The position numbers and the translations under genes are program-made. DNA of 64,000 nt, from assembly GCF_014201735.1 (NCBI RefSeq), contig NZ_JACHFE010000005.1:124001-188000 (forward strand), given 5' to 3'. Under the pieces are notes generated by a model, which saw only the letters and a list, made by a program, of their open reading frames with translations, ran no database searches and was not told the origin of the DNA. Below are positions 42,148-57,706 of this stretch, piece by piece. Each line of letters begins with the position of its first letter. Positions within the stretch are counted from its first letter, which is position 1. The stretch comes from Marinobacter oulmenensis. Its GTDB lineage: Bacteria > Pseudomonadota > Gammaproteobacteria > Pseudomonadales > Oleiphilaceae.

Positions 42148-42933
42148 TCAGGCCGCCTGGTGGCGGGCGGTATTGGTAACCGACTGATCAATGTCCTGCA
42201 GCAGGCTGCGATCCATCTGTCCGATGGGCAGGTCGTAGGTGATGGTCGCGCCATAGGCGTTGGGATCATGGGGATCGTTGCGCACCTTGTCGAATACCAG
42301 CAGGCGCGTGCCCAGGTAAAAGCCTTCGTGCAGGTCATGGGTGACCATGAAGATCGTAATGCCGATTTCCTGCCAGAGCTGCAGCAGCAGTTCGTGCATG
42401 TCCTTGCGGATACCCGGATCCAGGGCGCCGAAGGGTTCATCCAGCAGCAACACCCGCGGACGCATGATCAGGGACTGGGCAATGGCCAGTCGCTGCTGCA
42501 TGCCCCCGGACAGTTCATGGGGCCATTTGTTGGCGGACGGCGTCAGACCGACCCGCGCCAGCATGTCATCCACCTTCTCAAGCGCTTCTTTCCGGGCGCT
42601 GCCGAACAGTTTGCCCAGTAACGGCCTCTGCTCCAGCTCCAGCCCCATCAACACGTTCTGGCGCACCGTCAGGTGCGGGAAAACGGAGTAGCGCTGGAAT
42701 ACGATGCCCCGGTTACGGTCCGGCTCGGCCGGGAAGGTCTGCCCTTCCAGCAGCAGGTCACCGCGGGTCTGGGTTTCCTGACCCAGCAGCATTTTCAGGA
42801 ACGTGGATTTGCCGCAGCCGGAGGCACCCACCAGGGTGCAGAATTCCCCCTGCTCGACGTCCAGGTTCAGGTTCTCCAGCACGACCTGATCGCCGTACTG
42901 CTTCCACAATTTGTTGACGCTGATAAAGCTCAT
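42148..42933 (-). CDS. ABC transporter ATPase, riboswitch-controlled (guanidine uptake candidate)
   Basis: Nitrate/taurine-type ABC ATPase of 261 residues. Walker A GASGCGKST is near residue 40, signature LSGGMQQR near 140, and Walker B VLLLDEPFGALDP near 160. The ATG at 42933 shares a base with the permease stop (TGATG), so the two are coupled. The guanidine-I riboswitch upstream of the permease points to guanidine or a related cation as substrate; the matching binding protein is encoded 6.6 kb away in the carboxylase operon. Confidence 0.88.
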   Translation of the reverse strand: MSFISVNKLWKQYGDQVVLENLNLDVEQGEFCTLVGASGCGKSTFLKMLLGQETQTRGDLLLEGQTFPAEPDRNRGIVFQRYSVFPHLTVRQNVLMGLELEQRPLLGKLFGSARKEALEKVDDMLARVGLTPSANKWPHELSGGMQQRLAIAQSLIMRPRVLLLDEPFGALDPGIRKDMHELLLQLWQEIGITIFMVTHDLHEGFYLGTRLLVFDKVRNDPHDPNAYGATITYDLPIGQMDRSLLQDIDQSVTNTARHQAA

Positions 42934-43748
42934 CAGTGGCCTCCGGCGTTGTACCAGGGGAACAGTTTGCGGTTGGTCAGCCGCAGACACTGGTCGATAA
43001 CAATGGCAAGGACGGTGATCCAGATAACGTAAGGCAGGATCACATCCATGGCGAGATAACGGCGCACCAGGAAGATCCGGTAGCCCAGGCCCTCGGTGGA
43101 GGCGATGGCCTCGGCAGCAATCAGGAACAGCCAGGCCGGTCCCAGGCTCAGGCGAACCGCATCAATCAGACGCGGCAACACCTGTGGCAGGGCCATTCGG
43201 GTGACCACCTGCCAGCTGTTGGCGCCCAGGGTCTGGATCTTGATCAGCTGTTCGGTGGGCAGTTCCCGGACCCGCTGGGCCACATCCCGCATCATGATGG
43301 GGGCGGTACCGATGACAATCAGCATCACTTTGGACAGTTCCCCGAGGCCAAAGACAATGAACAGAATCGGCAGTATGGCCAGCGGTGGCACCATGGATAA
43401 CGCCGACACCAGAGGCGCGAGATTGGCGCGCACCAGCGGAAGAACACCATTGGCCAGCCCCACCACCAGGGCCATCAGTGCGGCAACACCCACGCCCATA
43501 CCCAGTCGCTCCAGACTGGCCAGGGAGTCGACCCACATCAGGTAATCACCGCTGCGTCGATCTTCCTGGAACGCCATGCGGTCGACAGCGGCGGTCATCT
43601 GTTCCAGACCGGGCAGGAGTTTGTCGTTGGGGTTTTCCGCCAGCCGCTGCTGCGAGGCCAGCCCGTAGATCAACAAAAGGATCAGGAAGGGAAGCACGCC
43701 AAGCGCGGTGGCGGTCAGCCGGCCGGGGGTGCGGTTTATCAATCGCAT
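42933..43748 (-). CDS. ABC transporter permease, riboswitch-controlled (guanidine uptake candidate)
   Basis: Inner-membrane permease of 271 residues from the ATG at 43748, preceded by AGAGGAGAG. It has an extended first periplasmic loop and a binding-protein-dependent permease domain with the EAA-type loop (ELPTEQLIKIQTLGANSWQVV). It is first in a two-gene operon whose leader holds the guanidine-I riboswitch and a sigma-54-like promoter. The family is that found beside urea-carboxylase-related genes. Confidence 0.88.
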   Translation of the reverse strand: MRLINRTPGRLTATALGVLPFLILLLIYGLASQQRLAENPNDKLLPGLEQMTAAVDRMAFQEDRRSGDYLMWVDSLASLERLGMGVGVAALMALVVGLANGVLPLVRANLAPLVSALSMVPPLAILPILFIVFGLGELSKVMLIVIGTAPIMMRDVAQRVRELPTEQLIKIQTLGANSWQVVTRMALPQVLPRLIDAVRLSLGPAWLFLIAAEAIASTEGLGYRIFLVRRYLAMDVILPYVIWITVLAIVIDQCLRLTNRKLFPWYNAGGH

Positions 43749-43797
43749 GAACGCTCTCCTCTGGTCACAGAACACGGCAATGGAATCACGTGCAATC

Positions 43798-43908
43798 CAG
43801 TCTCCCGGGCTTTTGTCCCGCCGTGTAACCTCTGCCAGAGGTCGGTGACTCTCGGACCAGCCATCCGGGGGCTGTCGCTGCGCCACCGGACCGGAACCCT
43901 AGTCACCC
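43798..43908 (-). promoter_or_regulatory. Guanidine-I (ykkC) riboswitch in permease leader
   Basis: Read on the minus strand, the class signature is complete: CTAGGGTTCCGG, then TGGTCCGAGAG, then ACACGGCGGGACAAAAGCCC and GGGAG (43801-43826). The P1 stem pairs GTGACT (43901-43906) with AGTCAC (43845-43850). Guanidine binding turns on such operons. It sits 50 bases before the permease start. Confidence 0.95.
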
Positions 43909-44008
43909 ATTGTGTCCGTTTGTCTGACCGCACGATGGGCGGTGTTGCTGTGAACGGATATGGGTAATCTGCCAGCACCCGACAACCCGGGCCTGACAGG
44001 GGGAACTT

Positions 44009-44024
44009 TGCAGGCACTGTGCCA
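44009..44024 (-). promoter_or_regulatory. Sigma-54 promoter of the ABC transporter operon
   Basis: On the minus strand TGGCACAGTGCCTGCA carries the -24 TGGCAC and the -12 GC at the exact 10-base separation, with one mismatch to the usual TTGCA. Transcription would start about 90 bases before the riboswitch. Confidence 0.65.
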
Positions 44025-44079
44025 TCCCTGCTTTTTTCCCGGGTTTGGGGGATTTCCGATAGCATTTGCAGGTTTTCTC

Positions 44080-44094
44080 GCACCACAACAGTGC
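44080..44094. promoter_or_regulatory. NtrC-type enhancer site of the ABC transporter operon
   Basis: GCACC-ACAAC-AGTGC fits the NtrC pattern GCACY-N5-RGTGC without mismatch. It lies about 90 bases upstream of the predicted sigma-54 start, a usual distance for NtrC. Confidence 0.6.
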
Positions 44095-44112
44095 GGTTTC
44101 CGATTTTATGCG

Positions 44113-45153
44113 TCATGAGCAGGCGCCCCGCTTCAGCAAAGCGGCGGCAGCACTCAGTATGCGCTGCTGGGAATCCGGCTCCCGCCCGGGGCCGCCAGCC
44201 ACATGGCCGTAGTCGGAAACCAGTGGCTGACAACTGCCGCCGGGCATGGCTGCGGCATCGTCCCGGGCATCGGTCATGGTGAAGTAGAGATCAGTACTCG
44301 AAGGCATCAGCACGGTGGGCATAGTCAACCGCTCAAGCGCCTGGCGATAGTCGCCACGGAATACCGGGTTGTCACTGATGTCCCCGGCCTTCCAGGTTTC
44401 CAGGACCGCAAGCAGATCGTTGGCATCCTGCTGAAGGTGATCCTGCTCCCAGAACGCCAGCAGACTTTCCGGCGACGCAAACCCCAGAGCCCGGTAGCTC
44501 TCATTGCGGAAAAACGCCTGGGAATAGGCCCAGCCGGCATAGACCCGGGCAAACGCCCTCAGCCCCCGTTCCGGCGGGGCCTGATAGTGGCCTCCCCGGT
44601 AATCCTGATCACAGGTCAGGGCCGCTTTGACCCCTTCAAGAAACACCTGATTGTGAGGATAACAGCGGGCGGTGGCGCACACCGCCAGCACCGATCGGAC
44701 CCGCTGCGGATACAGGCAGCCCCACTGCAATGCCTGCATGCCGCCCATGGACCAGCCCATGACCAGCGCCAGGGTTGCGCCCCCGAACACCTCGTCCAGT
44801 AACCGCTTCTGGAGCCGCACGTTGTCATACAGGGATACCGCCGGGAATCCCGGGCCGGCCTGGGTCCCGGCGGTGTTGGAGGGGGACGAGGACTCGCCGG
44901 CGCCGAGCATGGCCGGCACCACAATACAATAGCGCTGCGGGTCCAGCGGCCCACCCGGGGTTACCCAGGGATGGTTGCCGGCCGCCGCACCACCGTAGTA
45001 CGTGGGCAACAGGACCAGGTTGTCTTTTGGTGCATTGAGCTCACCGATCTGGTGGTAACGAAGACGGGCATCGTGCAGGACCGCACCGCCCGAAAGCGCC
45101 AGTTCCCCGGCCCTGAAATCCCGGATAATCCATTGTGGATCAGTCATCTGCAT
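44113..45153 (-). CDS. MetX-like alpha/beta hydrolase
   Basis: A 346-residue alpha/beta-fold protein of the homoserine O-acetyltransferase group. The nucleophile is in GWSMGGMQALQW (about residue 135), the acid in SSTDLYF and the histidine in YGHVAGG, so the triad is complete. True MetX enzymes are usually longer and lie near methionine genes; here it stands between nitrogen genes and diverges from glnT, so an acyl transfer or amide hydrolysis role in nitrogen use is possible. A GAGGAAT ribosome site supports the start. Confidence 0.75.
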   Translation of the reverse strand: MQMTDPQWIIRDFRAGELALSGGAVLHDARLRYHQIGELNAPKDNLVLLPTYYGGAAAGNHPWVTPGGPLDPQRYCIVVPAMLGAGESSSPSNTAGTQAGPGFPAVSLYDNVRLQKRLLDEVFGGATLALVMGWSMGGMQALQWGCLYPQRVRSVLAVCATARCYPHNQVFLEGVKAALTCDQDYRGGHYQAPPERGLRAFARVYAGWAYSQAFFRNESYRALGFASPESLLAFWEQDHLQQDANDLLAVLETWKAGDISDNPVFRGDYRQALERLTMPTVLMPSSTDLYFTMTDARDDAAAMPGGSCQPLVSDYGHVAGGPGREPDSQQRILSAAAALLKRGACS

Positions 45154-45216
45154 TTATTCCTCGGGCCCTGGTCCGGCATTGCCTGGACGGCCTCTCCGAT
45201 CTTTTACATACATGCT

Positions 45217-45232
45217 GGCATGTAAGTTGAAT
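45217..45232 (+). promoter_or_regulatory. Possible sigma-54 promoter of glnT
   Basis: TGGCATGTAAGTTGAA has the -24/-12 spacing of sigma-54 but lacks the -12 C. It overlaps a dyad TTACAT ... ATGTAA. It lies 65 bases upstream of the glnT start. No NtrC palindrome was seen nearby. Confidence 0.4.
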
Positions 45233-45296
45233 GAAAGATCCGTGCCAGAGATTCAAACAGCCCGCCCGTCCGACCGGGCCGACATGAGGAAAAAAC

Positions 45297-46655
45297 ATGA
45301 CTGAACCGACCGACACCCAGGCCCTGAAGCAGCAACTGACCGACGCGGGCGTGAAATACGCCATGGCCAGCTACGTGGATATCCACGGTGTCAGCAAGGG
45401 AAAATTCGTCCCCGTGGCTCATCTGGGCCAGATGATGGAAGGCTCCGAGCTCTACACCGGTGCCGCCCTGGATGGCGTACCCCAGGACATCTCCGATGAC
45501 GAAGTGGCCGCCATGCCGGACGCCGCCAACCTTGCCATCTGTCCCTGGAACCGCCAGCTCGCCTGGTTCCCCGGCAACCTGTACCTGAACGGCCAGCCGT
45601 TTGAAGCCTGCTCCCGCAATATCCTGCGCAGACAGCTGGCGGCGGCGGACAGCATGGGCTACCAGTTCAATCTGGGCATCGAAACCGAGTTTTTTGTGTT
45701 CCGGGATACCGACGATGGCGGTTTCGCTCCGTTCAGCGACCGGGATAGCCTCGGCAAGCCCTGCTATGACCCCCGCAGTCTGATGGACAATCTGCCGATC
45801 ATGGACGAACTGGTGGAGGCCATGAACGAGCTGGGCTGGGATGTGTATTCCTTCGACCACGAAGACGCCAACGGCCAGTTCGAAACCGACTTCAAATATG
45901 CCGATGCCCTGACCATGGCCGACCGCCTGGTATTCTTCCGCATGATGGCCAATGAAATTGCCCGCAAGCACGGCGCCTTCGCCAGCTTCATGCCCAAGCC
46001 CTTCAGTGATCGCACCGGCAGCGGCGCCCACTACAACATGTCACTGGCCGACGCCAGAACCGGCAAAAACCTGTTCAAACCGGACGGAGACGATACCCAC
46101 AACTGTGGCATCAGCCGCATTGCTTACCAGTTCATCGCCGGGGTGCTGAAGCACGGTGCCGCCATCAGCGCGGTGATTGCTCCCACCGTGAACAGCTACA
46201 AACGACTGGTGCGCCAGGGCAGCATGTCCGGCTCAACCTGGGCGCCGGTGTTCATGTGTTACGGCTCCAATAACCGCACCAACATGATCCGCATTCCCGG
46301 TGTCGGCGAGCGCATCGAATGCCGGGCCGCCGACATTGCCTGTAACCCCTATCTGGGCTCGGCCCTGATCCTGGCGGCTGGTCTGGAAGGTATTCGCGAA
46401 GGCCTGGATGCGGGCGCGCCGCACCATGAGAACATGTACAACTACAGTGACGCCGACATTGCCAAACAGGGCATTGAATACCTGCCCCGCAATCTGGGCG
46501 AAGCCATCGAAGCCTTTGAGGCCGACCCACTGGCCAAAGAGGTCTTCGGTGAGGCCATGTTCCGGGCGTTCGTGGACTTCAAGAAGGATGAGTGGGAGAG
46601 CTACCACAACCACGTCTCGGAGTGGGAAGTCGAGCGCTACCTAAAAATGTTCTGA
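45297..46655 (+). CDS. glnT: Type III glutamine synthetase (GlnT)
   Basis: ATP-dependent ligase of 452 residues joining ammonia or an amine to glutamate. The metal-site motif GIETEFFVF is near residue 128, SFDHEDANGQFETDF carries further ligands, and the C-terminal ligand block NNRTNMIRIP is near 323. The family includes gamma-glutamylmethylamide synthetases, so a methylamine-type substrate is an alternative. A GAGGAAAA ribosome site precedes the ATG. Its place beside the guanidine region suggests capture of released ammonia. Confidence 0.88.
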   Translation: MTEPTDTQALKQQLTDAGVKYAMASYVDIHGVSKGKFVPVAHLGQMMEGSELYTGAALDGVPQDISDDEVAAMPDAANLAICPWNRQLAWFPGNLYLNGQPFEACSRNILRRQLAAADSMGYQFNLGIETEFFVFRDTDDGGFAPFSDRDSLGKPCYDPRSLMDNLPIMDELVEAMNELGWDVYSFDHEDANGQFETDFKYADALTMADRLVFFRMMANEIARKHGAFASFMPKPFSDRTGSGAHYNMSLADARTGKNLFKPDGDDTHNCGISRIAYQFIAGVLKHGAAISAVIAPTVNSYKRLVRQGSMSGSTWAPVFMCYGSNNRTNMIRIPGVGERIECRAADIACNPYLGSALILAAGLEGIREGLDAGAPHHENMYNYSDADIAKQGIEYLPRNLGEAIEAFEADPLAKEVFGEAMFRAFVDFKKDEWESYHNHVSEWEVERYLKMF

Positions 46656-46662
46656 TGAGTCA

Positions 46663-46691
46663 CACCGGCCCGGGCCAGACCCGGGCCGGTG
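46663..46691. terminator. GC-rich hairpin between glnT and siderophore-interacting gene
   Basis: Twelve-base perfect stem CACCGGCCCGGG with CCCGGGCCGGTG and a five-base loop lies between two convergent genes. No T-run follows on either strand, so it is a weak or factor-aided terminator. Confidence 0.5.
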
Positions 46692-46714
46692 CGCCCTCCC
46701 GGGGGGGGCCAGCG

Positions 46715-47464
46715 TTATCCCTCGGCGTCCGCATCCCGGCGCTTGATCACCTTGTGCTCATCCTCGGACTGCCCCTGCTTCCAGTAACTGGATACATACA
46801 TCTTCATCCGGTCCACGCCCCGCTCCTGGCGGAAATACCGGCGCAGCGCCCGCATGCAGCTGAACTCACAGGCCGCCCAGATGGCCGGCTCACCCTCATC
46901 CCAGAGCAGATCGCGCACGGTCCGCACCAGCGCGCTGTCGTCCCCGCCCGGTTCCGGGTTCACCACCCAGTGCAGGCTTACCCCCTCAGGGTGCGGCAAA
47001 TTCGTTATGTCGCCTTCGTCCAGTACTTCCAGGACCGCATGTCCCCTGGCGTCAGCGGGCAGGCTGGCGAGATTGACCCGGATGGCGGGCAGCGCCGTCA
47101 TGTCACCGGCAATCAGGAACCAGTCCCCGTCCGGATTGATGAGCTTGCGGGGGCCGGGACCACCCACCTGTATCCGGTCGCCCGGCCGGGTGCTGGCCGC
47201 CCAGGCCGACGCCGGGCCACTGTCCTCGTGCAGTACGAAATCCAGATCAATCTCCCCCGGTCGCTGGCGGGCAATGGTGTAGGTACGCGTCAACGGATGA
47301 TCGCTGCCCTCCTGTGGGTACACGAGTTTGACGTAAGCACTTTCCTGCTGCTCGGGGAAGTCCTCAAGGGCGGCTCCGCCAAGGGTGACCCGGACCATGT
47401 GAGGAGTCAGCCGGGTGCTATCGAGCACCTCCAGTTGCCGGGGATTCAGTTTCGGTTTGGGCAT
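46715..47464 (-). CDS. Siderophore-interacting protein (ViuB-like ferric reductase)
   Basis: FAD-containing reductase that releases iron from siderophores using NAD(P)H. It has 249 residues. The flavin-binding RTYTIARQRPGEIDLDFVLH block and the C-terminal SSYWKQGQSEDEH are hallmarks of the family. Its start overlaps the marR stop by 19 bases, so the regulator and the reductase are translated together. Confidence 0.92.
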   Translation of the reverse strand: MPKPKLNPRQLEVLDSTRLTPHMVRVTLGGAALEDFPEQQESAYVKLVYPQEGSDHPLTRTYTIARQRPGEIDLDFVLHEDSGPASAWAASTRPGDRIQVGGPGPRKLINPDGDWFLIAGDMTALPAIRVNLASLPADARGHAVLEVLDEGDITNLPHPEGVSLHWVVNPEPGGDDSALVRTVRDLLWDEGEPAIWAACEFSCMRALRRYFRQERGVDRMKMYVSSYWKQGQSEDEHKVIKRRDADAEG

Positions 47465-47916
47465 GGTGTTTCGGTCTCTGTGTCGCAGGTGTCTTTGAGG
47501 GTATTGCGGATCATGGTTGAGGCCATCTCACGAAAGCCATCCAGCTCGGCGTCACTGAGCGAGTCCGACATCACCCCTGCGGCCTGGGCTTCGGCCGTCA
47601 GAATCTGGTCCAGCGTGCTACGCCCGTCCTCGGTGATCGCCAGAATCTGGCTGCGCCGGTCTTCCGGGTCCCGCTGCCGGCTGATCTGTGCCATTGCCTC
47701 GAGCTCATTGAGAGCCCGGGTCACCTGGGCCTTGTCAGTGCCAATCCGGCGGGCCACTTCACGTGCAGTGGTCGCCTTCAGGCTGCCAATGGCCTTGAGA
47801 ATGCGGATATGGGTGACCGGAAGCGTGATGCCCTGGTCCCGTATCGAGCGCCTTAGCTGACGACGGTAGGCATGCATCAATTGATGCAGGGTGTCGCCGA
47901 TGGAGTCGGTGGCCAT
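47446..47916 (-). CDS. MarR-family regulator
   Basis: Winged-helix repressor of 156 residues from the ATG at 47916 (MATDSIGDTL), preceded by GAGGGAGC. The DNA-binding block (ATTAREVARRIGTDKAQVTRAL) and the wing (SRQRDPEDRRSQILAIT) are clear. It leads the two-gene operon with the siderophore-interacting protein. Two copies of a palindromic element just upstream suggest that it represses itself, possibly in response to a phenolic or metal-chelate ligand. Confidence 0.9.
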   Translation of the reverse strand: MATDSIGDTLHQLMHAYRRQLRRSIRDQGITLPVTHIRILKAIGSLKATTAREVARRIGTDKAQVTRALNELEAMAQISRQRDPEDRRSQILAITEDGRSTLDQILTAEAQAAGVMSDSLSDAELDGFREMASTMIRNTLKDTCDTETETPCPNRN

Positions 47917-47932
47917 GATGCTCCCTCGTTGG

Positions 47933-47974
47933 TTGATACTGTCAATCATCAGCCATAAAAGTAGACACTGTCAA
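47933..47974. promoter_or_regulatory. Two MarR-operator-like palindromes
   Basis: TTGATACTGTCAA (47933-47945) and TAGACACTGTCAA (47962-47974) share the form TTGA-N5-TCAA (the second with one mismatch), and begin 29 bases apart directly upstream of marR. On the minus strand each supplies a TTGACA hexamer, so a bound regulator would cover the -35 region. Confidence 0.5.
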
Positions 47975-48108
47975 CCATTAGTCGGGCGGGTTTTGTCAAT
48001 GCCGCGTAAAACCCTTGTAAAGCCGCCCCACATGCGGTCCCTGACGTCAAAAGCGGCGATACAATCCGGGAAAAGCAACGGAATTACCCGCTCCCGGATG
48101 GAATCCTG

Positions 48109-49446
48109 ATGAGACCTGCGAATATCTTCTTTATGGCTTTTGTGGCCGTACTGACCCTGGCCTGGCTCCTGGCCGACTCCCTCTGGCCGGAGCCGTTCAC
48201 CTATTTTTCCTTCCGCCACGTTTTTGTTCAGTACAGTGGCGTTATTGCCATGGGCGTGATGAGCCTGGCCATGATCCTGGCATTGCGGCCCAAGTGGCTG
48301 GAAACCCGGCTCAACGGGCTCGACAAGATGTACCGGCTGCATAAATGGCTGGGAATCACCGCGCTGGTGATGGCCACCCTGCACTGGTGGTGGGCCCGGG
48401 GCACCAAATGGATGGTGGGCTGGGGCTGGCTGGACAAGCCCGCCCGGGGCGGCCCGCGCCCGGAGGAAACCCTCGGCACCCTGGAAGCTGCCCTGCGCAG
48501 CCAGCGCGGGCTGGCGGAAACCGTGGGGGAATGGGGGTTCTATGCCTTTGCCATCCTCCTGGTTCTGGCCCTGATCAAACGGTTCCCCTACCGGCTGTTC
48601 AGCAAGGCCCACCGGTTCATCCCACCACTTTATCTGCTGATGGTGTTCCACACCGTGGTGCTGATGGAGTTTGATTACTGGCTGCAACCGGTGGGCATTC
48701 TGATGGCGCTGCTGCTGGCCGGCGGCACCGTGGCTTCGGTCTACTCACTGACTGGTCGCATCGGGGCTGTGCGCCGCTCCACGGCAACCGTCGACCGCCT
48801 GACCCGGTATCCGAGCCTACAGGCTCTGGAAATCTCGGCGGTTGTGGATAACCACTGGCCGGGCCATGCCGCCGGGCAGTTTGCCTTTGTCACCTCGGAC
48901 CGCCGGGAAGGCGCCCATCCGTTCACCATTGCCTCCGGCTGGGATCCGCAACAGCGCCGGGTGGTGTTCATTACCAAGGCCCTGGGTGATTATACCTCAC
49001 GGCTGCCGGAGGAACTCCGGGAAGGCATGACGCTGGAGATCGAAGGCCCCTACGGCTGCTTTGATTTCCGGGATGACCGGCCAAGGCAGGTGTGGATTGG
49101 CGCCGGCATCGGCATCACCCCGTTTGTTGCCCGCATGAAGGAACTGGCGGCAGAACCCGGTGACAAGCCGGTGGATCTTTTCCACGTCACGTCGGATACC
49201 GACCCGGAGGCCATGGCGAAACTCAGGGCCGATGCCGCCGCTGCGGGCATCCGCCTGCACCTGATCATCAGCCCCCGGGATGGCCGGCTGGATGCCGACA
49301 GGCTGCGGTCACTGGTTCCGGACTGGCAACAGGCCAGTGTCTGGTTCTGCGGCCCGGCGGGTTTCGGCCAGCAACTGCGCCGGGGCCTGACCGCCCTGGG
49401 TTACCCCGCCAGCCGCTTCCACCAGGAACTGTTCCAGATGCGCTAA
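48109..49446 (+). CDS. Transmembrane ferric-reductase-like flavoprotein
   Basis: A 445-residue membrane oxidoreductase. The N-terminal half has about six membrane helices with haem-ligand histidines (HKWLGITALVMATLHWWW, HRFIPPLYLLMVFHTVVL). The C-terminal half holds FAD-binding (AHPFTIASGW) and NAD-binding (IGAGIGITPFVARM) domains, as in ferric reductases of the NOX/FRE type. It diverges from marR and may reduce iron for the same uptake route. Its stop overlaps the convergent tetR stop by four bases. Confidence 0.9.
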   Translation: MRPANIFFMAFVAVLTLAWLLADSLWPEPFTYFSFRHVFVQYSGVIAMGVMSLAMILALRPKWLETRLNGLDKMYRLHKWLGITALVMATLHWWWARGTKWMVGWGWLDKPARGGPRPEETLGTLEAALRSQRGLAETVGEWGFYAFAILLVLALIKRFPYRLFSKAHRFIPPLYLLMVFHTVVLMEFDYWLQPVGILMALLLAGGTVASVYSLTGRIGAVRRSTATVDRLTRYPSLQALEISAVVDNHWPGHAAGQFAFVTSDRREGAHPFTIASGWDPQQRRVVFITKALGDYTSRLPEELREGMTLEIEGPYGCFDFRDDRPRQVWIGAGIGITPFVARMKELAAEPGDKPVDLFHVTSDTDPEAMAKLRADAAAAGIRLHLIISPRDGRLDADRLRSLVPDWQQASVWFCGPAGFGQQLRRGLTALGYPASRFHQELFQMR

Positions 49447-50069
49447 CCGGCCGGTTCCGGCGGCAGCGACAGCAGGTGCCGGAACTGGCGCTGGAAAAAC
49501 GGAATCTGCTGTTCCAGCGAGAACAGCCCCGGCGCAAACAACCAGGTCTGGGTGATGCCCATCAGGAAGGTGTAACAGAGCAGCCCCAGGTCCTCGGGCT
49601 GTTCGTCACTTTTCAGGTCGCCCTGCTCCCGCGCTTTGCCCGAAAGCTCGCCAAACAGGGCCACAATCGAGCGGGTCAGTTCCCGTTCCCGCTTCAGGGT
49701 CCGGCTCATGGCGTCGGTGAGTTCGGTCTTGTTGAGCAGGATTTCGAACGACTGCCGGTAACGCCGGTCATTGGCCAGCAGTGACAGCCACTGCTCCAGA
49801 AAATGCTCCATGGCCGCCACCGGTTGATCGGCCATGCTTTGGCATTCATCCACCAGCGCTTCCAGCGGTTCCTGGGAGTAGGCCAGCACCGCTTCGTACA
49901 GGTCATCCTTGTTCTGGAAGTGCCAGTATATGGGCCCGCGACTGCAGCCGGCTTCCTTGGCGATCCGGCTTAACGTCGTCAATGAATAACCGTCCCGGCT
50001 GAACAGCGTTAAGGCTGCTTCCAGCACCGTCTGGCGGGTTTTCTCGGCCTCTTCCTTGGTTCGACGCAT
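49443..50069 (-). CDS. TetR/AcrR-family regulator
   Basis: A 208-residue repressor. The N-terminal helix-turn-helix (TLSRIAKEAGCSRGPIYWHF, about 31-50) resembles AcrR and TtgR, repressors of RND pumps, and the C-terminal ligand domain also fits. It stands alone, with no efflux pump adjacent; the RND pair at 33.6-37.8 kb is one possible target. Confidence 0.88.
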   Translation of the reverse strand: MRRTKEEAEKTRQTVLEAALTLFSRDGYSLTTLSRIAKEAGCSRGPIYWHFQNKDDLYEAVLAYSQEPLEALVDECQSMADQPVAAMEHFLEQWLSLLANDRRYRQSFEILLNKTELTDAMSRTLKRERELTRSIVALFGELSGKAREQGDLKSDEQPEDLGLLCYTFLMGITQTWLFAPGLFSLEQQIPFFQRQFRHLLSLPPEPAG

Positions 50070-50102
50070 CTAAAGTCTTCTCACGAGCTGACATGGGAGT
50101 AC

Positions 50103-50215
50103 GGGTTGGTGTGGGGCTCCCTCCCAAAACACGCTCCTTCGGCACGTCCATGTGACGCTTGGGCTCCGCCATCCCTGGCTCCGCACAGTTTTGTGAGGGA
50201 GCCCCACACCAACCC
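50103..50215. repeat. Long perfect inverted repeat, possible miniature element
   Basis: A 21-base arm at 50103-50123 is repeated exactly in inverse at 50195-50215, and the pairing continues inward to 50130/50188 with one mismatch. The 113-base unit lies between tetR and the guanidine operon terminator. The form suits a non-autonomous mobile repeat or REP-like element. No clear target duplication was found, and only one copy is in the window. Confidence 0.7.
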
Positions 50216-50249
50216 TTCCTATATCCTGGGAGTCACTGGTTAACTCCCG

Positions 50250-50275
50250 AAAAAAAGGGCACGACTATCGTGCCC
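50250..50275 (-). terminator. Terminator of the guanidine carboxylase operon
   Basis: Stem GGGCACGA with TCGTGCCC, three-base loop, followed on the minus strand by seven T. It closes the operon that begins at the riboswitch near 56.5 kb. Confidence 0.88.
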
Positions 50276-50307
50276 TCAGGTGCCTGATGAAACAAGCGGT
50301 GCGGCAA

Positions 50308-51375
50308 TCAGATCTCGCCGTCCGCCGCCATCTGCATGTAGTCATCGTTGAAGCGCAGCTTCACGTTGCCGGAATCACCCATGACCGTGCCGTCCGGGAA
50401 TTCGATGCCGACAAAGTCCGGGCTCATGGCGCCCTGGCCCAGCAGCCCCTTGTCAAAGGAGAACTGGCGCACGCTGTCCATGGCCTCAAAGGCTTCGTCG
50501 CTGTTGATGAAGTCCACCGACATCTGCGGCTCCCAGAACATCTTCATGCCCGCCAGTTGGGCTTCATAGCCGGCCTGGTCGGTACCGGACAGCTCACCCA
50601 GATGGGCGCGGGCTTCCTCACCCTTCTTGGAGTCGGATTCCAGGATGCTCATGGTTTCATACCAGGCGCCAACCAGGGCCTTGCCCAGTTTCGGGTTGTC
50701 TTCCAGTGTTTCGGTGCTGACCAGGGTCAGATCCTTGATGTGGCCCGGAATCTGGCTGGAATCGAACAGTTTGGTGGCACCCGGGTAGGCTTCCACTTCA
50801 CTCAGCAGCGGGTTCCAGGTGGCCACGTGGCGCACGTCGTCAGTCTGGAAGGCAGACACCAGGTCGGCGTCGGAGATGTTGACCACGTCCAGATCACGCT
50901 CGGACAGGCCCACGCTTTCCAGCGCACGGGCCAGCAGGTAGTGGGAGACGGACAGTTCCACCAGGTGCACGGTTTCGCCTTCCAGTTCCACGATGGAGGT
51001 GGCGTCCTTGGACACCAGGCCGTCGTTGCCGTTGGAGTAGTCGCCCACGATCAGGGCGGTGGTGTCCAGGCCGGAGGCCGCCGGAATCGACAGACCATCC
51101 ATGCTGGTGGCCACCACGCCATCAAACTGGCCGGCGGTGTACTGGTTGATGGATTCGATGTAGTCGTTCACCTGCACGATATCCACTTCGATATCGTACT
51201 TGTCGGCCCATTTTTTCATGATGCCGCTGTCTTCGGCGTACTGCCAGGGCACCCACCCGGCGTAAATGGTCCAGGCAATGCTGAACGAATCCTTTTCCGC
51301 AGCGAGCGCGGCAGGAGACAGGGCGGCCGCCAGCACGCCGGCGACCAGGGGTTTGCTCAGGTTACGTGTTTTCAT
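50308..51375 (-). CDS. ABC solute-binding protein of the guanidine operon
   Basis: Periplasmic binding protein of 355 residues in the nitrate/sulfonate/taurine class (NMT1-like). A signal peptide ends at AALAAE (about residue 26); the mature part starts with SIAWTIYAGWVPWQYA. It is the last gene of the riboswitch-led operon, 51 bases after the carboxylase. It probably serves the permease and ATPase at 42.1-43.7 kb, which lack a binding protein of their own. Confidence 0.9.
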   Translation of the reverse strand: MKTRNLSKPLVAGVLAAALSPAALAAEKDSFSIAWTIYAGWVPWQYAEDSGIMKKWADKYDIEVDIVQVNDYIESINQYTAGQFDGVVATSMDGLSIPAASGLDTTALIVGDYSNGNDGLVSKDATSIVELEGETVHLVELSVSHYLLARALESVGLSERDLDVVNISDADLVSAFQTDDVRHVATWNPLLSEVEAYPGATKLFDSSQIPGHIKDLTLVSTETLEDNPKLGKALVGAWYETMSILESDSKKGEEARAHLGELSGTDQAGYEAQLAGMKMFWEPQMSVDFINSDEAFEAMDSVRQFSFDKGLLGQGAMSPDFVGIEFPDGTVMGDSGNVKLRFNDDYMQMAADGEI

Positions 51376-51426
51376 GGCTTCTCTCCTCGGGCATGGCCCG
51401 TCTGGTCATGACTGAAACTTGTTGTG

Positions 51427-54400
51427 TCAACTTTCGAGTTCTTCGACGATCACCACCGGCGCTCCCGGGGCAACGGCCTGACCGGCCTCCCGCCGGACTT
51501 CGATCACCTTGCCCGCCACCGGACTCAGCAATTCGATTTCCATCTTCATGGACTCCACCACCGCCACCGGGCGCTGGGCCTCAATCATGTCGCCGGGCTT
51601 CACCAGGCATTCCCAGACATTGCCGGCCACATGGCTTTCAATGGCGTGCTGCCCGGCGGGCAGATCGATGATGTCGTCCTCACCCGTGTCCTCGATGGGG
51701 GCTTCGGCACTGAAATTGATCTGGCCGGATTCGATCCAGCGCTGCAGTTCCTCGTCGAAGGCCTGCTTGCGGTGATCGGTGAAGCTCTGAATGTCATCCT
51801 GGTTGTCCGCCAGGAACTGCTCGTAGTCCTTCAGATTGAACCGGGTTTCCTCCACTTGAATCGGGTAATCGCCATTGGGGAACTCCCGGCGGATCTGTTG
51901 CAGTTCCTCGGCGCTGACTTCGTAGAAGCGGATCTGGTCAAAGAAGCGCAGCAGCCACGGCTGGCCCGGCTGGAAGTACTCGGTGGTGCGGTAGCGGTTC
52001 CACATCTGCAGGGTGCGGCCTACAAACTGGTAGCCGCCCGGCCCTTCCATGCCGTAGATGCACAGGTAGGCACCGCCGATACCCACGGAATTCTCGGCGG
52101 TCCAGGTGCGGGCCGGGTTGTATTTGGTGGTCACCAGACGGTGGCGCGGGTCCAGGGGCGTGGCGACCGGGGCACCCAGGTAGACATCGCCCAGGCCCAT
52201 CACCAAATAGCTGGCGTCGAACACGGTCTTCTTGACCTCGTCGATGCTCTCCAGGCCGTTGATGCGGCGAATGAATTCCAGGTTGCTCGGGCACCAGGGG
52301 GCGTCCTTGCGGACCGACTGCATGTATTTGGCAATCGCCTGCTGGCAGGCTTCGTCATTCCAGGACAGGGGCAGATGGACAATACGGCCCGGCACGTCCC
52401 ACTCCGGTTGCTGCTCCAGTTCGCGCTCGGCGGCCACCAGCAGATCAAGCAGTGCCTGCTGCCCGAGGCGCAGGCTGTCATAGTGCACCTGCAACGACCG
52501 GATGCCGGGGGTCAGCTCCAGAATGGCCGGATGCGACCGGTCCCGGAGCCACAGCATCAGGGCGTGGGCACGGAAGCGCAGACGGATGTCCAGCTCCATC
52601 GGCCCGTATTCCACCAGCAGGTAATTGTCGCCGGCAGCGCGGTAGACCACCCCGGTTTCATGTTCCTCCGTCGACAGGGTCCGTAGTACAGGAGTGTCCG
52701 GGCGTGCCGGTGTGACCTCAACGTTGGCGGGAATCAGGGCGTCGATGGCTTCCTCCTGGGCCTCCCGAAGGGCCACCGCCTGCAACTGGCTGACCGGCAC
52801 AAAGCGGATCTTATCCCCGGCCTTGAGCTGACCCAGCTTCCAGAGGTCCGCGCTGATCACGGTCACCGGGCAGACAAAACCACCCAGGCTTGGGCCATCC
52901 GGGCCCAGGATCACCGGCATGTCACCGGTGAAATCCACGGTACCCACGGCGTAGGCATTGTCGTGAATGTTGGAGGGATGCATGCCGGCTTCGCCGCCGT
53001 CGCTGCGTGCCCACTCGGGCTTGGGCCCGATCAGGCGGACACCGGTGCGGCTGGAGTTGTAGTGAATTTCCCACTCACTGTCGAAAAAGGTCTCGATGTC
53101 CTGCTCGGTGAAATAGTCCGGCGCGCCGTGGGGGCCGTAAGTCACGTGCAGGGTCCAGTCCCGGCCCAGGCCGGGTTTGAGACCGGCGTCCAGGGTCCTG
53201 GCCGGCACCGAAAGGCACTCCGGCAGCCGGAGCACATCCCCGGCGCGCAGGGCGCGGCCACAGTGGCCGCCGAACTGGCCGAGGGTGAAGGTGCTGCGCG
53301 ACCCCAGGTAATCAGGGCAGGACAGGCCTCCGGCAAACAGCACATAAGCCCGGGCGCCTTCGCCGCTGACCGCCCCCAGTGTCAGGGTGGCACCGGCGGG
53401 AATCTCCGTCACCTGCCAGAACGGCAGCGGTTTGCCATCAAGGCGGGCATCCAGTTCCGCACCGGCCAGCACGATCTGGGTAGACCGGTTGAAACGCAGG
53501 GTCGGACCCTTGAGGGTAATTTCCAGGCCGGCGGCCGACGTATCGTTGCCCAGCAACTGGTTGCCCAGGCGGAACGAATAGCTGTCAAAGGGGCCGGAGG
53601 GCGGCACGCCCACTTCCCAGTAGCCCTGACGCCCCGGATAGTCCTGGATGGTGGTCAGGGTACCGCCGGACATCACGTCCACCGTCGCCGGCTGGTAGAC
53701 AAACTCATTCAGGGTCCGGGTGTAGAGGCGGGCCTCACGGAAACGGTCGTCCTCCAGCACCTGGCGGACATAAAGGGTGTTGGTTTCGATGCCATAGAGG
53801 TGGGTGTCTGCCAGGGCCTCCGCCAGGTGCCGGCGGGCGGCCTCCCGATCGGATTCATGAACGATGACCTTGGCCAGCATGGGATCAAACAGCGGCGAAA
53901 CCTCGGAGCCTGGCTGAATCCAGTGGTCAATGCGCAGGCCGGCATCCTCGGGCCAGCGGACGTCGGTCAGCAGGCCGGCACTGGGCTGGAAATCCTTGTT
54001 GGGGTCTTCGGCGTAAATCCGGGCCTGGATGGCGTGACCGGACGGGCTCAGGTCGCCGGCCAACGTGGCCAGGTCCCCCTGGGTGCCGGCGCCCAGCTCG
54101 ACCATCCAGCGGACGATGTCGACACCATAGACCTGCTCGGTGACGCCGTGCTCCACCTGCAGGCGGGTGTTTACCTCCAGGAAGTAGAAATCCGCGGTAT
54201 CCGGATCGTAGATGAACTCCACTGTGCCGGCGCTGCGATAGGCGATGCTTTCACCCAGTTGGCGGGCGGTGTCGTGCATCCGGGTGCGCACCTCATCGGT
54301 GATACCCGGCGCCGGTGCTTCCTCGATGACTTTCTGGTTGCGGCGCTGGGCAGAGCAGTCACGCTCACCCAGAGCCACCACCTGGCCGGCGCCATCGCCG

Positions 54401-55053
54401 AAGAGCTGAACCTCGATATGGCGGGCATGTTCGACAAACTTCTCCAGGAACACACCGCTGTTACTGAAGTTGTTCTGCCCCAGACGCTGCACCGATTCGA
54501 AACTCCAGCGCAGCTCGTCTTCGCTGTAACAGCGGGACATCCCGATGCCACCGCCACCGGCGGTGCTTTTCAGCATCACCGGGTAGCCAATGGCCCGGGC
54601 CGCCTCGACCGCCTCATCCAGGCTGGTGAGCAGTTCCGTACCCGGCAGCAACGGCACGCCGGCCTGCTCCGCCAGGGCACGGGCGGTGTGCTTGAGGCCG
54701 AACTGCTCCATCTGCTCCGGCGTCGGGCCCAGGAAGATGATGCCTTCGGCCTCGCAGCGGCGGGCAAAGTCCGGGTTTTCGCTGAGGAAACCATAGCCGG
54801 GGTGCACGGCCTGGGCGCCGCTCTGGCGGATCACCTCGAACAGCCGTTCCTGATTCAGGTAAGTCGCTGCCGCATTGCCCTCTCCCAGCGACCAGGCTTC
54901 GTCCGCCTGGCGCACGTGCAGGGAATCAAAATCCGCGTCGGCATAGACCGCCACCGAGGCAATGCCCATGGCCTTGAGTGTCCGGGTGATCCGGCAGGCA
55001 ATGGCGCCGCGATTGGCGATCAGCACCTTGGTGATGGGGGAATTCAGCTCCAT
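51427..55053 (-). CDS. Guanidine/urea carboxylase (biotin-dependent)
   Basis: A 1208-residue enzyme carboxylating guanidine (or urea) with ATP and bicarbonate. An N-terminal biotin carboxylase domain (about 1-450; ATP loop [11 protein letters not shown]) is followed by KipA- and KipI-like carboxyltransferase domains and a biotinyl domain with the lysine in ESMKMEI (about residue 1170). Many proteins annotated as urea carboxylase in riboswitch operons prefer guanidine. With the riboswitch and the two partner genes, guanidine is the favoured substrate. The start overlaps the previous gene by 10 bases. No allophanate hydrolase is fused or adjacent. Confidence 0.92.
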
Positions 55054-55682
55054 ACCAGCACCTCGATCGGTGTCGGGTTCCAGCCATTACAGGGGTTGTT
55101 CAGCTGGGGGCAGTTGGAAATCATCACCAGTACGTCCATCTTGGCTTCCAGTTCCACGTACTTACCGGCATCGGAAATACCGTCGGCAAAGGTCAGGCCG
55201 CCCTCGGCGGTCACCGGTACGTTCATGAAGAAGTTGATGTTGTGGGTGATATCCCGTTTGGTCATGCCCAGTTCCTCATGCTCTGTGACCGCCACCAGCC
55301 AGCTGTCACGGCAGGCGTGCATGCACTTTTTCTCCAGGGCATAGCGGGTGGTGTTGCTTTCCGCCGCGCAGGCGCCGCCCAGGGTGTCGTGGCGTCCGCA
55401 GGTGTCGGCGGTGATCTCCAGCATCGGGTTGTTTTCCGACGACATCAGTACGGAGCCGGCCGTCAGGTAGACATTGCCCTGGGCACGGATGGTGTCCGTC
55501 ACGCTGTAACGTTCGGTCGGGTTGTGGGCGTTGTAGAACAGGGTGTCGGCGGCCTGGTTGCCTTCCAGATCCAGGATGCGGATCGTCTCGCCCGCTTTCA
55601 CCACTTTGAGGAAATACTCGCCGGCAGGCACGGTTTCGCGGAAGCTAGCGTTGTCAGGATTCAGTGCGCTTTGTTTGATCAT
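55044..55682 (-). CDS. Urea-carboxylase-associated protein (carboxyguanidine deiminase subunit)
   Basis: A 212-residue member of the DUF1989 family. The pattern [31 protein letters not shown] and [10 protein letters not shown] is shared with the neighbouring gene. In guanidine-using bacteria two such proteins form CgdAB, which deiminates carboxyguanidine to allophanate. Which of the two is CgdA cannot be settled here. It overlaps the carboxylase start by 10 bases. Confidence 0.88.
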
Positions 55683-55695
55683 CTCCGGCCTCCGA

Positions 55696-56421
55696 TTACT
55701 GCATCAGGTGGTACAGGGCGGTATTGGCGAAGGCCCGGGTGGCCTCCGGCGACGAGATCTTGCAGGGGTCGGCATCGGTCACCGGTGCGGCCCTGAAGAG
55801 CTGATACCGCAGGGGATGGCTCGGGTAGTCGGCGGACGGGTCCAGTGGGTGCGGGCAGGTATGCAGCACCACAATGGTGTCCATCTCGAAGCGCAGATCG
55901 ACAGTGGCACCGGCATGGGAGTGGTCACTGACATAACTCATGTTGCCGTCGTCATCGGTTTTCACCCGACTGAACCAGTTCAGGTTGGCGGTCAGGTCTT
56001 TCTTGCCCAGGCCATACTTGGCCAGTTCGTTGAGAAAGCTGTTAAAACCGTTGCGATGGTAGTGATTATGGGCTTCCTGATAGGTCTTGCGGCCCCAGCG
56101 CTGCTCCACCAGATCGGCGTTGCAGGTGCCGCTGACGGTATCATGCCAGCCCAGGTCATCGCGGATGATGGAGGCGAACACACGGCCCATGTCGGACAGC
56201 AGAACATGGCCCCGGGTGAGCTTGAAGGTGTGCTGGTTTTTCAGGGTATCCGGCATGTTGTAGCGTTCGAGAGGGTTCTCGGGGTTGTACATCAACATGC
56301 CGACATTGGCGTGGCCGGTCTCGTCAATCAGGCGCAGGACATGGCCGCGGCGCATGATGAAGGACCAGTGGGATCCGCCGGGAATCAGATCGTCGTAGAG
56401 GGGCGTGGCTGTATCAAGCAT
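55696..56421 (-). CDS. Urea-carboxylase-associated protein (carboxyguanidine deiminase partner)
   Basis: First gene of the operon, with 241 residues and homologous to the next gene (DUF1989 family). It has [35 protein letters not shown] and the metal-site-like [11 protein letters not shown]. Together with the downstream protein it should convert carboxyguanidine to allophanate plus ammonia. It lies 56 bases downstream of the guanidine-I aptamer. Confidence 0.88.
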
Positions 56422-56477
56422 GGCCTTTTCCTCGCTGGCTTGGCGTTTAAAAAAACGAGAGGCGTCAGTAACTGAAC

Positions 56478-56575
56478 GATCCTCCCGGGCTTTTGTCCCG
56501 CCGTGTAGCCTTGGAAAAGGCCGTCAACTCTCGGACCAGTCGCCTGCAGAGCAGGCCGGAACCCTAGTTGACCAT
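56478..56575 (-). promoter_or_regulatory. Guanidine-I (ykkC) riboswitch in carboxylase operon leader
   Basis: The minus strand shows CTAGGGTTCCGG, CTGGTCCGAGAG and ACACGGCGGGACAAAAGCCC followed by GGGAGG (56481-56506). P1 pairs GTCAAC (56567-56572) with GTTGAC (56523-56528). It is the second copy of the class in the window; P1 differs in sequence from the first copy but keeps pairing, as expected of a functional RNA. Confidence 0.95.
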
Positions 56576-56639
56576 TTGTCAGATTGTCGCGCTTTGATAG
56601 TGGTTACAGAACCGACGTCTCGCTGCGTACCGTAATAAA

Positions 56640-56655
56640 TTCAAGGCCTGTGCCA
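56640..56655 (-). promoter_or_regulatory. Sigma-54-like promoter of the carboxylase operon
   Basis: TGGCACAGGCCTTGAA has a perfect -24 and the right spacing; the -12 reads TTGAA instead of TTGCA, which weakens the call. It lies about 55 bases upstream of the riboswitch. Confidence 0.5.
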
Positions 56656-56733
56656 TATATGCCAACGATCTGATTCTCCGTTGTTTTCCCGGTGATTGAC
56701 GGCGCCCGGGGCAGACAACGGCACCGCCACAAC

Positions 56734-56748
56734 GCACCCTGACGGTGC
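56734..56748. promoter_or_regulatory. NtrC-type enhancer site of the carboxylase operon
   Basis: GCACC-CTGAC-GGTGC is a perfect NtrC-pattern palindrome. Its centre is about 113 bases upstream of the predicted start, near the -108 position at which NtrC acts at glnA. The rest of the 361-base gap (56422-56782) holds the riboswitch and promoter described separately. Confidence 0.62.
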
Positions 56749-56782
56749 ATGACCGGGCGAGCTCGCACCTTTGGGGAGCCTG

Positions 56783-57706
56783 TTACAGGTCCAGACCGTA
56801 GGTATCAGCGCTCTGATCCATGCCCGTGATCGCCCCGCGGATCAGTTCTTCCACCATCAGCCGGTCCGGGCGTTCGCCCTGCTCTTCATGGGACCAGAGC
56901 GCAATGTCCCGGCGTGTGCCCTCATACCCTTCCACCGCCAGCAGCTGGCGCGGCGAGACTTCCCCGGTCATCAGGGCCAGCCGCGCCGGCAGGCACACCA
57001 GCATGTCCGTGGTTTTCAGCAGGTGCAGCAGCGACCGTATGCTGCCAGTCAGTGCCACCCTTGCCGCCCGGCTGCCCATCAGATCGTCCTGGCGATCCAG
57101 GAAGCCGGCGTGGGCACCGGCGACCACCCACTGTCGGTTGGCGACCTGGTCCCGGCTGACCGGTTGCCTCGCGCCAACCAGTGGTGACTGCCTGCCGGCA
57201 AATATGCCGGCCCGGTCCCGGAACAGGAGTTCCCTTTTCAGGAATTTCTGGGACACCGACAGGTGCGCCGGAGCGATCAGGAAATCCAGTTTGCCGCTTC
57301 TGAGCAGCTCAATCTGGGTGGCGGCGGAACCGGTCCGCAGGTGAAACACCACCCGGCTCTCTTCCAGAAACGCTTCCGTCATCCGGTCCACGGTGGCGAA
57401 TTCCCAGAGCGGATCAATGCCGATGCTGAATTCGTTGCGATAGCCACTGTGCCACTGCCGGATCATCTCGTCGCCATGGTCGGCATCGGCCAGAATCCGT
57501 TCGCCGAGACGGGCCAGGCGCGCACCGATCTCCGTGGGCACCACCCCGTGCCGGGTGCGGGTCAGCACCGCGCCACCTACCTTCATCTCAAGCTGTTTGA
57601 TGCTCCGGGTCAGGGTCGGCTGGCTGACGTGCAACTGCTCACAGGCCCGGGTAAGCGAGCCCTGGTTCACCACAATGGCCAACTGCTTCAAGAGGTTGGG
57701 GTTCAT
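56783..57706 (-). CDS. LysR-family regulator
   Basis: A 307-residue LysR regulator: winged helix at 1-60 (QLAIVVNQGSLTRACEQLHVSQPTLTRSIKQLEMK contains the helix-turn-helix at about 18-37) and an effector domain after 90. It diverges from the mobA-like gene across about 120 bases and probably activates it with 3-hydroxybenzoate or a related acid. MobR of Comamonas is a MarR protein, so this control would be different. Confidence 0.9.
   Translation of the reverse strand: MNPNLLKQLAIVVNQGSLTRACEQLHVSQPTLTRSIKQLEMKVGGAVLTRTRHGVVPTEIGARLARLGERILADADHGDEMIRQWHSGYRNEFSIGIDPLWEFATVDRMTEAFLEESRVVFHLRTGSAATQIELLRSGKLDFLIAPAHLSVSQKFLKRELLFRDRAGIFAGRQSPLVGARQPVSRDQVANRQWVVAGAHAGFLDRQDDLMGSRAARVALTGSIRSLLHLLKTTDMLVCLPARLALMTGEVSPRQLLAVEGYEGTRRDIALWSHEEQGERPDRLMVEELIRGAITGMDQSADTYGLDL

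Follow-up and report, generated by a model that had tools for sequence, protein, structure and literature searches.

Transcription of the Klebsiella nasFEDCBA operon has an NtrC-dependent start. The transcript then meets a leader terminator, which is overcome by the nitrate-responsive protein NasR (PMC3369931; here and below, a cited paper is represented by the part of its text that was accessible to us). In cyanobacteria, the global nitrogen regulator NtcA and a glutamine riboswitch act on one gene, gifB, with NtcA as a repressor (PMC6316151). Bacteria that use guanidine import it, carboxylate it, deaminate the carboxyguanidine and hydrolyse allophanate (PMC12186494). Here we describe a 64,000-nucleotide window of Marinobacter oulmenensis DNA (contig NZ_JACHFE010000005.1, positions 124,001–188,000 of the forward strand; coordinates below count from its first letter) with two units for guanidine import and breakdown, a permease operon and a carboxylase operon, each led by a guanidine-I aptamer. 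We regard it as highly probable that both are started by sigma-54 RNA polymerase and NtrC in nitrogen limitation and that each transcript is then gated by its riboswitch. Each layer is known alone; their serial use over guanidine operons we did not find in print.

Both aptamers are full-length matches to the Rfam guanidine-I family (RF00442, model positions 1–107) above the gathering score of 63, and Rfam found no other guanidine-I match in the 3.71 Mb genome. A preliminary description of this DNA had claimed for each operon a complete aptamer, a sigma-54-like element and a GCACC-N5-RGTGC palindrome, and all of these are present (Table 1). We scored sigma-54 elements against the consensus TGGCACRNNNNTTGCW, which has 12 fixed positions, and each element of the window agrees at 11 of them. 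A published form of the consensus is GGcacg-N4-ttGC (PMC5491218). The permease element follows TGGCAC-N5-TTGCW with GG at −24 and GC at −12, and it is conserved. The predicted start of the carboxylase operon is 56629 on the minus strand (56628 in the preliminary description).

The preliminary description had suggested scanning related genomes for the same order of sites, and this layout recurs in most sampled leaders. The window's GTDB family comprises 163 genomes, of which 70 have guanidine-I, with 117 aptamers in total. An even draw of 398 Pseudomonadota genomes gave 43 with a match (41 above cut-off), and 29 of 369 genomes of the class have guanidine-I; both wider draws include some family members. 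We read 117 family and 82 other Pseudomonadota leaders, 199 in all, omitting three matches under the cut-off (G446, G256:C1:836539 and G367 in our genome identifiers); these 199 include aptamers of one genome and of close relatives. For 189 of the 199, tblastn gave importer, UAAP1 or similar genes; the other 10, of which two have no readable first gene, showed no SMR-type exporter recognisable by eye. We required GG at −25/−24 and G at −13 and searched the 150 nt 5' of each aptamer. A sigma-54 element of at least 10/12 was found in 111/117 family and 69/82 other leaders; over 200 rounds of dinucleotide shuffling the mean was 1.7 for the family set (maximum 5) and 1.4 for the other set (maximum 7). 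All 43 permease-class family leaders have such an element, as does at least one leader in 117 of 132 genomes.

Aptamers, sigma-54 elements and palindromes stand in a conserved order and at conserved distances. In a control that varied only the gap between −24 and −12, the correct gap occurred in 93/117 and 55/82 leaders, any other gap of 3–13 nt in at most four and the reverse complement in at most one; the signal therefore depends on the correct spacing. After thinning at 80% identity (34/49 UAAP1, 33/43 permease, 13/15 substrate-binding-protein-class and 66/69 outside leaders left), the fixed columns of the element carry 1.69–1.95 bits, against 0.06–0.32 just upstream. Of the family UAAP1 leaders, 52 have an element of at least 10; its −12 base lies 62–64 nt from the aptamer in 45 of them and 62–66 nt in 50, the remaining two having 79 and 93 nt; in the 43 permease leaders the distance is 57–105 nt. 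Outside the family, the element stands merely 5–16 nt before the aptamer in 14 of the 69 leaders with a good element (loci L133, L159, L160, L179 and L180, for example, whose palindromes score 6 or 7 of 10). At the minimum distance, 5 nt, transcription would start at model position 7, where the pairing of P1 begins, and none of the leaders with an element of at least 10 would start further into the aptamer. Judging from these distances, we read the limit as probable selection that keeps the whole aptamer inside the sigma-54 transcript.

Conservation of the carboxylase leaders also changes at the predicted start. In 23 leaders left after thinning at 85%, positions −10 to −1 stay at a background of 0.07–0.31 bits except for 0.74 at −8, followed by 0.93 bits at +1, 1.33–2.0 at +2 to +12 and then mixed values. 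Because the information rises at +1/+2, a conserved transcribed leader appears to begin at the position expected of a sigma-54 start. A model of this element, about 60 nt long, has one match each in 51 of the 163 family genomes, and all 51 adjoin a UAAP1 aptamer; among the 53 family UAAP1 loci, only G024 and G011 are without one. A motif check found the element in 49/53 family UAAP1 leaders and 0/146 other leaders. Rfam has nothing in this region besides guanidine-I, and RNAalifold gave just five weak pairs with zero covariation. A CGAGA in the element is complementary to the UCUCG of the terminator arm described below, which we record as a lead only. We put forward tentatively, and with some doubt, a broader proposal: guanidine use across Pseudomonadota would as a rule be two-tiered, with NtrC/sigma-54 initiation followed by a guanidine riboswitch, and the family's carboxylase transcript would carry in this leader a second, undescribed 5' RNA element that runs from the start site and joins in the switch, for example through CGAGA–UCUCG pairing.

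The palindromes lie close to where NtrC would be expected. NtrC sites of the GCACC-N5-GGTGC type usually stand 100–150 nt upstream of the start (PMC5491218); in the window the distance from the outer end to the predicted start is 96 nt for the permease operon, just below that range, and 119 nt for the carboxylase operon. Among scored family leaders, the palindrome begins 69–72 nt upstream of −24 in 33 of the 39 of the permease class and 87–94 nt upstream of the TGG in 45 of the 50 of the UAAP1 class. A joint test for a sigma-54 element of at least 9/12 and a palindrome of at least 8/10 is passed by 103/117 family and 47/82 outside leaders, with a shuffled mean of 0.8 in both sets (maxima 5 and 3). 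We rejected any argument from the palindrome alone, as the genome has 16 perfect GCACC-N5-GGTGC copies, and only the copy in the window is accompanied by a sigma-54 element of at least 10/12 within 230 nt. Another of the perfect copies directly follows the glnA stop codon (L046 1501–1515; G000:C7:125551–125565), beside terminator-like sequence and not in a promoter position.

The combined pattern, by contrast, is no chance occurrence. GCAC-N7-GTGC followed after 50–80 nt by TGGC-N8-TG occurs at seven places in the 3.7 Mb genome, against one for a reversed-pattern control. Four of the seven are inside open frames of at least 100 codons, which need not be genes. Two of the remaining three belong to the permease and carboxylase operons, and the third falls in the gap that separates the genes for an allophanate hydrolase (TIGR02713, 610 bits for the part of the gene within the locus) and urtA (TIGR03407, 560.5 bits). 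These two genes diverge around the palindrome and sigma-54 element (L227 1440–1760; G000:C6 near 13874–13980). This palindrome is in no frame of at least 60 codons, and TGGCACGGGCCTTGCG lies close before the allophanate hydrolase start codon, where no guanidine aptamer was found, both of the genome's copies being in the window. From the genome-wide pattern and the aptamer count, all three pathway units found share the NtrC/sigma-54 part and two add a guanidine sensor. The sigma-54/NtrC part and an aptamer occur together in the family genome G024 (L082), at a gene that we took by eye for allophanate hydrolase. The M. oulmenensis genome encodes NtrC (TIGR01818, 765.9 bits) and sigma-54 (rpoN; TIGR02395, 514.1 bits), both above cut-off.

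Data from other organisms point the same way. In Burkholderia cenocepacia H111, RNA-seq after a shift to 0.3 mM ammonium showed I35_7283–7286 down in an ntrC mutant, with a log2 change of −6.0 (about a 64-fold loss) for the carboxylase I35_7286; the substrate-binding protein I35_7283 and the aminomethyltransferase-type protein I35_7285 were marked na(m) (PMC5491218). We equated this cluster with one in B. cenocepacia NZ_CP091014.1 by gene names and species and not by strain sequence. At the latter there are two divergent guanidine-I aptamers, and upstream of the UAAP1 aptamer stand TGGCACGCAACTCGCT and a 9/10 palindrome, GCACTGCACCGGTGC. A 2025 prediction of sigma-54 regulons lists 102 COG3665 genes, which come from the alpha, beta and gamma classes and of which 59% carry the name urea carboxylase (PMC12316311). 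Plasmids of Pantoea ananatis (TGGCACGCCAATTGCA) and Azospirillum sp. B510 (TGGCACGGGCTTTGCG) also have the aptamer behind a sigma-54-type element, with no palindrome listed above 8/10. The Pantoea plasmid additionally has a guanidine-II aptamer between UAAP2 and the carboxylase gene (L220 6382–6431) besides the guanidine-I aptamer at the operon start.

Taken together, sigma-54 initiation of both operons is strongly supported by the conservation, the spacing control and the conserved leader at the predicted start. NtrC, which the preliminary description had proposed as the activator, is very likely in that role, an idea supported by the palindromes, the ntrC and rpoN genes, the allophanate hydrolase/urtA hit and the Burkholderia ntrC-mutant data.

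Table 1. Features of the permease and carboxylase operons in window coordinates.
Feature	Operon	Positions	Strand	Details
NtrC-type palindrome, GCACCACAACAGTGC	permease	44080–44094	.	9/10 to GCACC-N5-GGTGC; 70 nt before the −24 element
Sigma-54 −24/−12 element, TGGCACAGTGCCTGCA	permease	44009–44024	-	11/12 to TGGCACRNNNNTTGCW; GG and GC intact
Predicted transcription start	permease	43998	-	12 nt past the C of −12
Guanidine-I aptamer	permease	43800–43913	-	Rfam RF00442, 91.4 bits
P2 5' arm, CCUCUGG	permease	43835–43841	-	complement of the ribosome-binding region
GCCGUGU	permease	43772–43778	-	complement of aptamer ACACGGC (43820–43826)
CCAGAGG over the ribosome-binding site	permease	43758–43764	-	complement of the P2 5' arm; putative translational off state
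ABC permease	permease	42933–43748	-	likely ATG at 43748; Pfam BPD_transp_1; nearest NCBIfam TauC, under cut-off
ABC ATPase	permease	42148–42990	-	Pfam ABC_tran
NtrC-type palindrome, GCACCCTGACGGTGC	carboxylase	56734–56748	.	10/10; one of the genome's 16 perfect sites
Sigma-54 element, TGGCACAGGCCTTGAA	carboxylase	56640–56655	-	11/12 to TGGCACRNNNNTTGCW; −12 is GA
Conserved leader element	carboxylase	56571–56630	-	model R1 match G000:C5:180571–180630; begins at predicted start 56629
Guanidine-I aptamer	carboxylase	56480–56578	-	Rfam RF00442, 93.2 bits
P2 5' arm, GGCCUUUUCC	carboxylase	56513–56522	-	complement of 56422–56431
Intrinsic terminator, CGGGAGG...CCUCUCG-U7	carboxylase	56449–56487	-	predicted fold; 5' arm is the aptamer 3' end
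GGAAAAGGCC	carboxylase	56422–56431	-	adjoins ribosome-binding site and start codon
UAAP1	carboxylase	55696–56421	-	NCBIfam TIGR03425, 329 bits
UAAP2	carboxylase	55044–55682	-	NCBIfam TIGR03424, 335.5 bits
Urea/guanidine carboxylase	carboxylase	51427–55053	-	NCBIfam TIGR02712, 1860.4 bits
ABC substrate-binding protein, urea-carboxylase-associated type	carboxylase	50308–51375	-	NCBIfam TIGR03427, 507.7 bits

The permease operon consists of the ABC permease and ATPase genes, and the substrate-binding protein gene sits in the second operon after the carboxylase gene. UAAP1 and UAAP2 we take, from pathway knowledge, to be the two subunits of carboxyguanidine deiminase, and from the riboswitch we infer a putative preference of the carboxylase for guanidine. 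No allophanate hydrolase was found among the window proteins scanned, which are part of the window's set; the gene is elsewhere in the genome, as described above. Between the two operons, at 45297–46655 on the plus strand, lies a gene for a type III glutamate-ammonia ligase (TIGR03105, 586.7 bits), which is possibly part of the same nitrogen island.

The two leaders appear to differ in their off states. The carboxylase terminator comes from a predicted fold, and a simple terminator scan did not list it. T-runs of at least five within 140 nt after the aptamer occur in 36/53 family UAAP1 leaders versus 1/43 permease leaders, and no terminator was seen in the permease leader of the window. There, the 5' arm of P2 could instead mask the ribosome-binding site, and both partners, CCTCTGG and CCAGAGG, are kept in 37/43 permease leaders. 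GCCGTG, the complement of the conserved aptamer CACGGC, follows within 110 nt of the aptamer in 42/43 permease and 0/53 UAAP1 leaders. In UAAP1 leaders, GGAAAAGG is found downstream in 45/53, and 43 of these 45 are fully paired across the 8-base core; of the eight leaders without it, three (G072, G100 and G110) lose the complement through an inserted base, and some keep a shorter one. In another of the eight, that of G024, both partners differ in sequence yet still match each other, which makes it the only clear case of compensation. A loose count of complements of at least 7 bases to any part of P2 within 170 nt, which admits in-gene matches, gives 51/53 UAAP1 and 38/43 permease leaders. Drawing on this complementarity and on minimum-energy folds, we propose that the off state of the enzyme operon is termination, perhaps with masking, and that the permease operon would rely on masking alone. 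The alternative structures of the aptamer are consistent with an on-switch by guanidine.

We propose the following order of events. Nitrogen limitation would lead NtrC to activate sigma-54 RNA polymerase at both guanidine units. Each transcript would then meet its guanidine-I riboswitch, and expression would proceed only with guanidine bound. In its absence, the carboxylase transcript would end at an intrinsic terminator formed in part by the aptamer's 3' end, and its ribosome-binding site would probably be masked as well; the permease transcript would probably be held back by masking of that site. The unlinked gene for allophanate hydrolase, which performs the last step, has the NtrC/sigma-54 part without an aptamer. 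For both units we infer NtrC binding, the start sites, the ligand response and the strictness of the gate.

Several observations weigh against this proposal or parts of it. Six of the 117 family leaders and 13 of the 82 outside leaders are without a sigma-54 element of at least 10/12, close relatives do not contribute independent leaders, and even the N4 spacer shows partial conservation in the UAAP1 set (0.92 bits). The carboxylase element has GA instead of GC at −12, although the rest fits; GAT at that −12 site is also found in G068, G069, G078, G086 and G035. Covariation in the off-state pairing is thin. Outside the family, 35 of the 82 leaders fail the joint test; these may depend on another activator or have a different form of NtrC site. 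The same failures would suit a sigma-54 start under a different enhancer-binding protein that reads another signal, and besides matches to the receiver domain alone, the ntrC profile has ten matches in the genome, to NtrC itself and to nine others. Such a protein seems unlikely to us in view of the NtrC-form palindromes at fixed spacing, the lack of any ntrC-profile match within the window and the loss of expression in the Burkholderia ntrC mutant. A LysR-type gene (56783–57706) directly upstream of the carboxylase operon, on the same strand, offers a local regulator, but a sigma-54 element and a palindrome are also present at the permease operon, which has an alpha/beta hydrolase gene next upstream, and in most sampled leaders, and we consider control by the LysR-type protein very improbable. 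As to chance likeness of GC-rich DNA to consensus sites, 15 of the 16 perfect palindromes do lack a good sigma-54 element nearby; we nevertheless rejected this explanation and give it practically no credence, as the shuffle and spacing controls, the genome-wide joint pattern and the conservation in our view already refute it.

If NtrC and sigma-54 start both transcripts, the strictness of the gate is a further question. A strict AND gate is the natural reading, plausible but unproven, and cells would probably open the guanidine route only if nitrogen is scarce and guanidine available. One could suppose instead that NtrC/sigma-54 sets on and off and the riboswitch just tunes the level, or the reverse, by way of another promoter or read-through from upstream genes on the same strand. 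We find this doubtful, yet it is a possibility to be taken seriously. Under starvation, wild-type B. cenocepacia expressed its cluster, yet the accessible text names no guanidine among the contents of the medium (PMC5491218), which weighs against a tight gate; either the gate leaks or cells may hold or make some guanidine. In addition, same-strand genes end at 44113 and 56783, close upstream of the two leaders. Against this loosened control, no sigma-70-like promoter was found in either leader by a consensus scan, the only search made for one, and proteomics of Vreelandella boliviensis on ammonium did not detect most of the operon proteins and put three at about a thousandfold below their guanidine level (PMC12508155), a comparison that varies the nitrogen and guanidine inputs together and does not separate the two.

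A serial NtrC/sigma-54 and riboswitch control would have practical consequences. In the literature covered, guanidine riboswitches are discussed without their promoters. If a sigma-54 and NtrC-type start is the rule, guanidine would be a reserve nitrogen source, quite apart from its toxicity, and the guanidine response would go unseen in tests with medium rich in ammonium. It would also explain why a "urea use" operon falls in an ntrC mutant. The two units would form a natural two-input device with a global nitrogen signal and an RNA sensor in series. Our literature search, with subscription papers mostly outside its reach, found no paper that joins a guanidine riboswitch with NtrC or sigma-54. 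In the accessible text of the guanidine riboswitch review, the word sigma is absent and Ntr occurs only in an author name (PMC12186494), and the word carboxylase is absent from that of a Pseudomonas stutzeri NtrC paper (PMC8443478).

Known guanidine-I (ykkC) operons share with this locus the aptamer family, the ABC importer, deiminase and carboxylase genes and the on-switch logic (PMC12186494), whereas here a sigma-54 element and NtrC-type sites stand upstream, the pathway is spread over three units and the off states apparently differ. Compared with the NtrC/sigma-54 regulon of glnA, urea and nitrate genes, the −24/−12 element and the palindrome 70–93 nt upstream of −24 are alike, but the transcript here then meets a metabolite riboswitch. 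I35_7283–7286 of B. cenocepacia is the same kind of cluster, with NtrC dependence by RNA-seq; it was described as urea use, and the words guanidine and riboswitch are absent from the accessible text (PMC5491218). The gifB gene likewise places a global nitrogen regulator and a riboswitch on one gene, but both of its inputs are general nitrogen status, whereas here one is general and the other substrate-specific. The logic most resembles the nas operon with a riboswitch in NasR's place: a general nitrogen signal would start the transcript and the specific substrate would let it pass a leader terminator, which the predicted fold of the carboxylase leader contains and the permease leader does not. 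In contrast to nas, the specific sensor at this locus would be an RNA aptamer rather than an RNA-binding protein, and one of the units seems to use translation.

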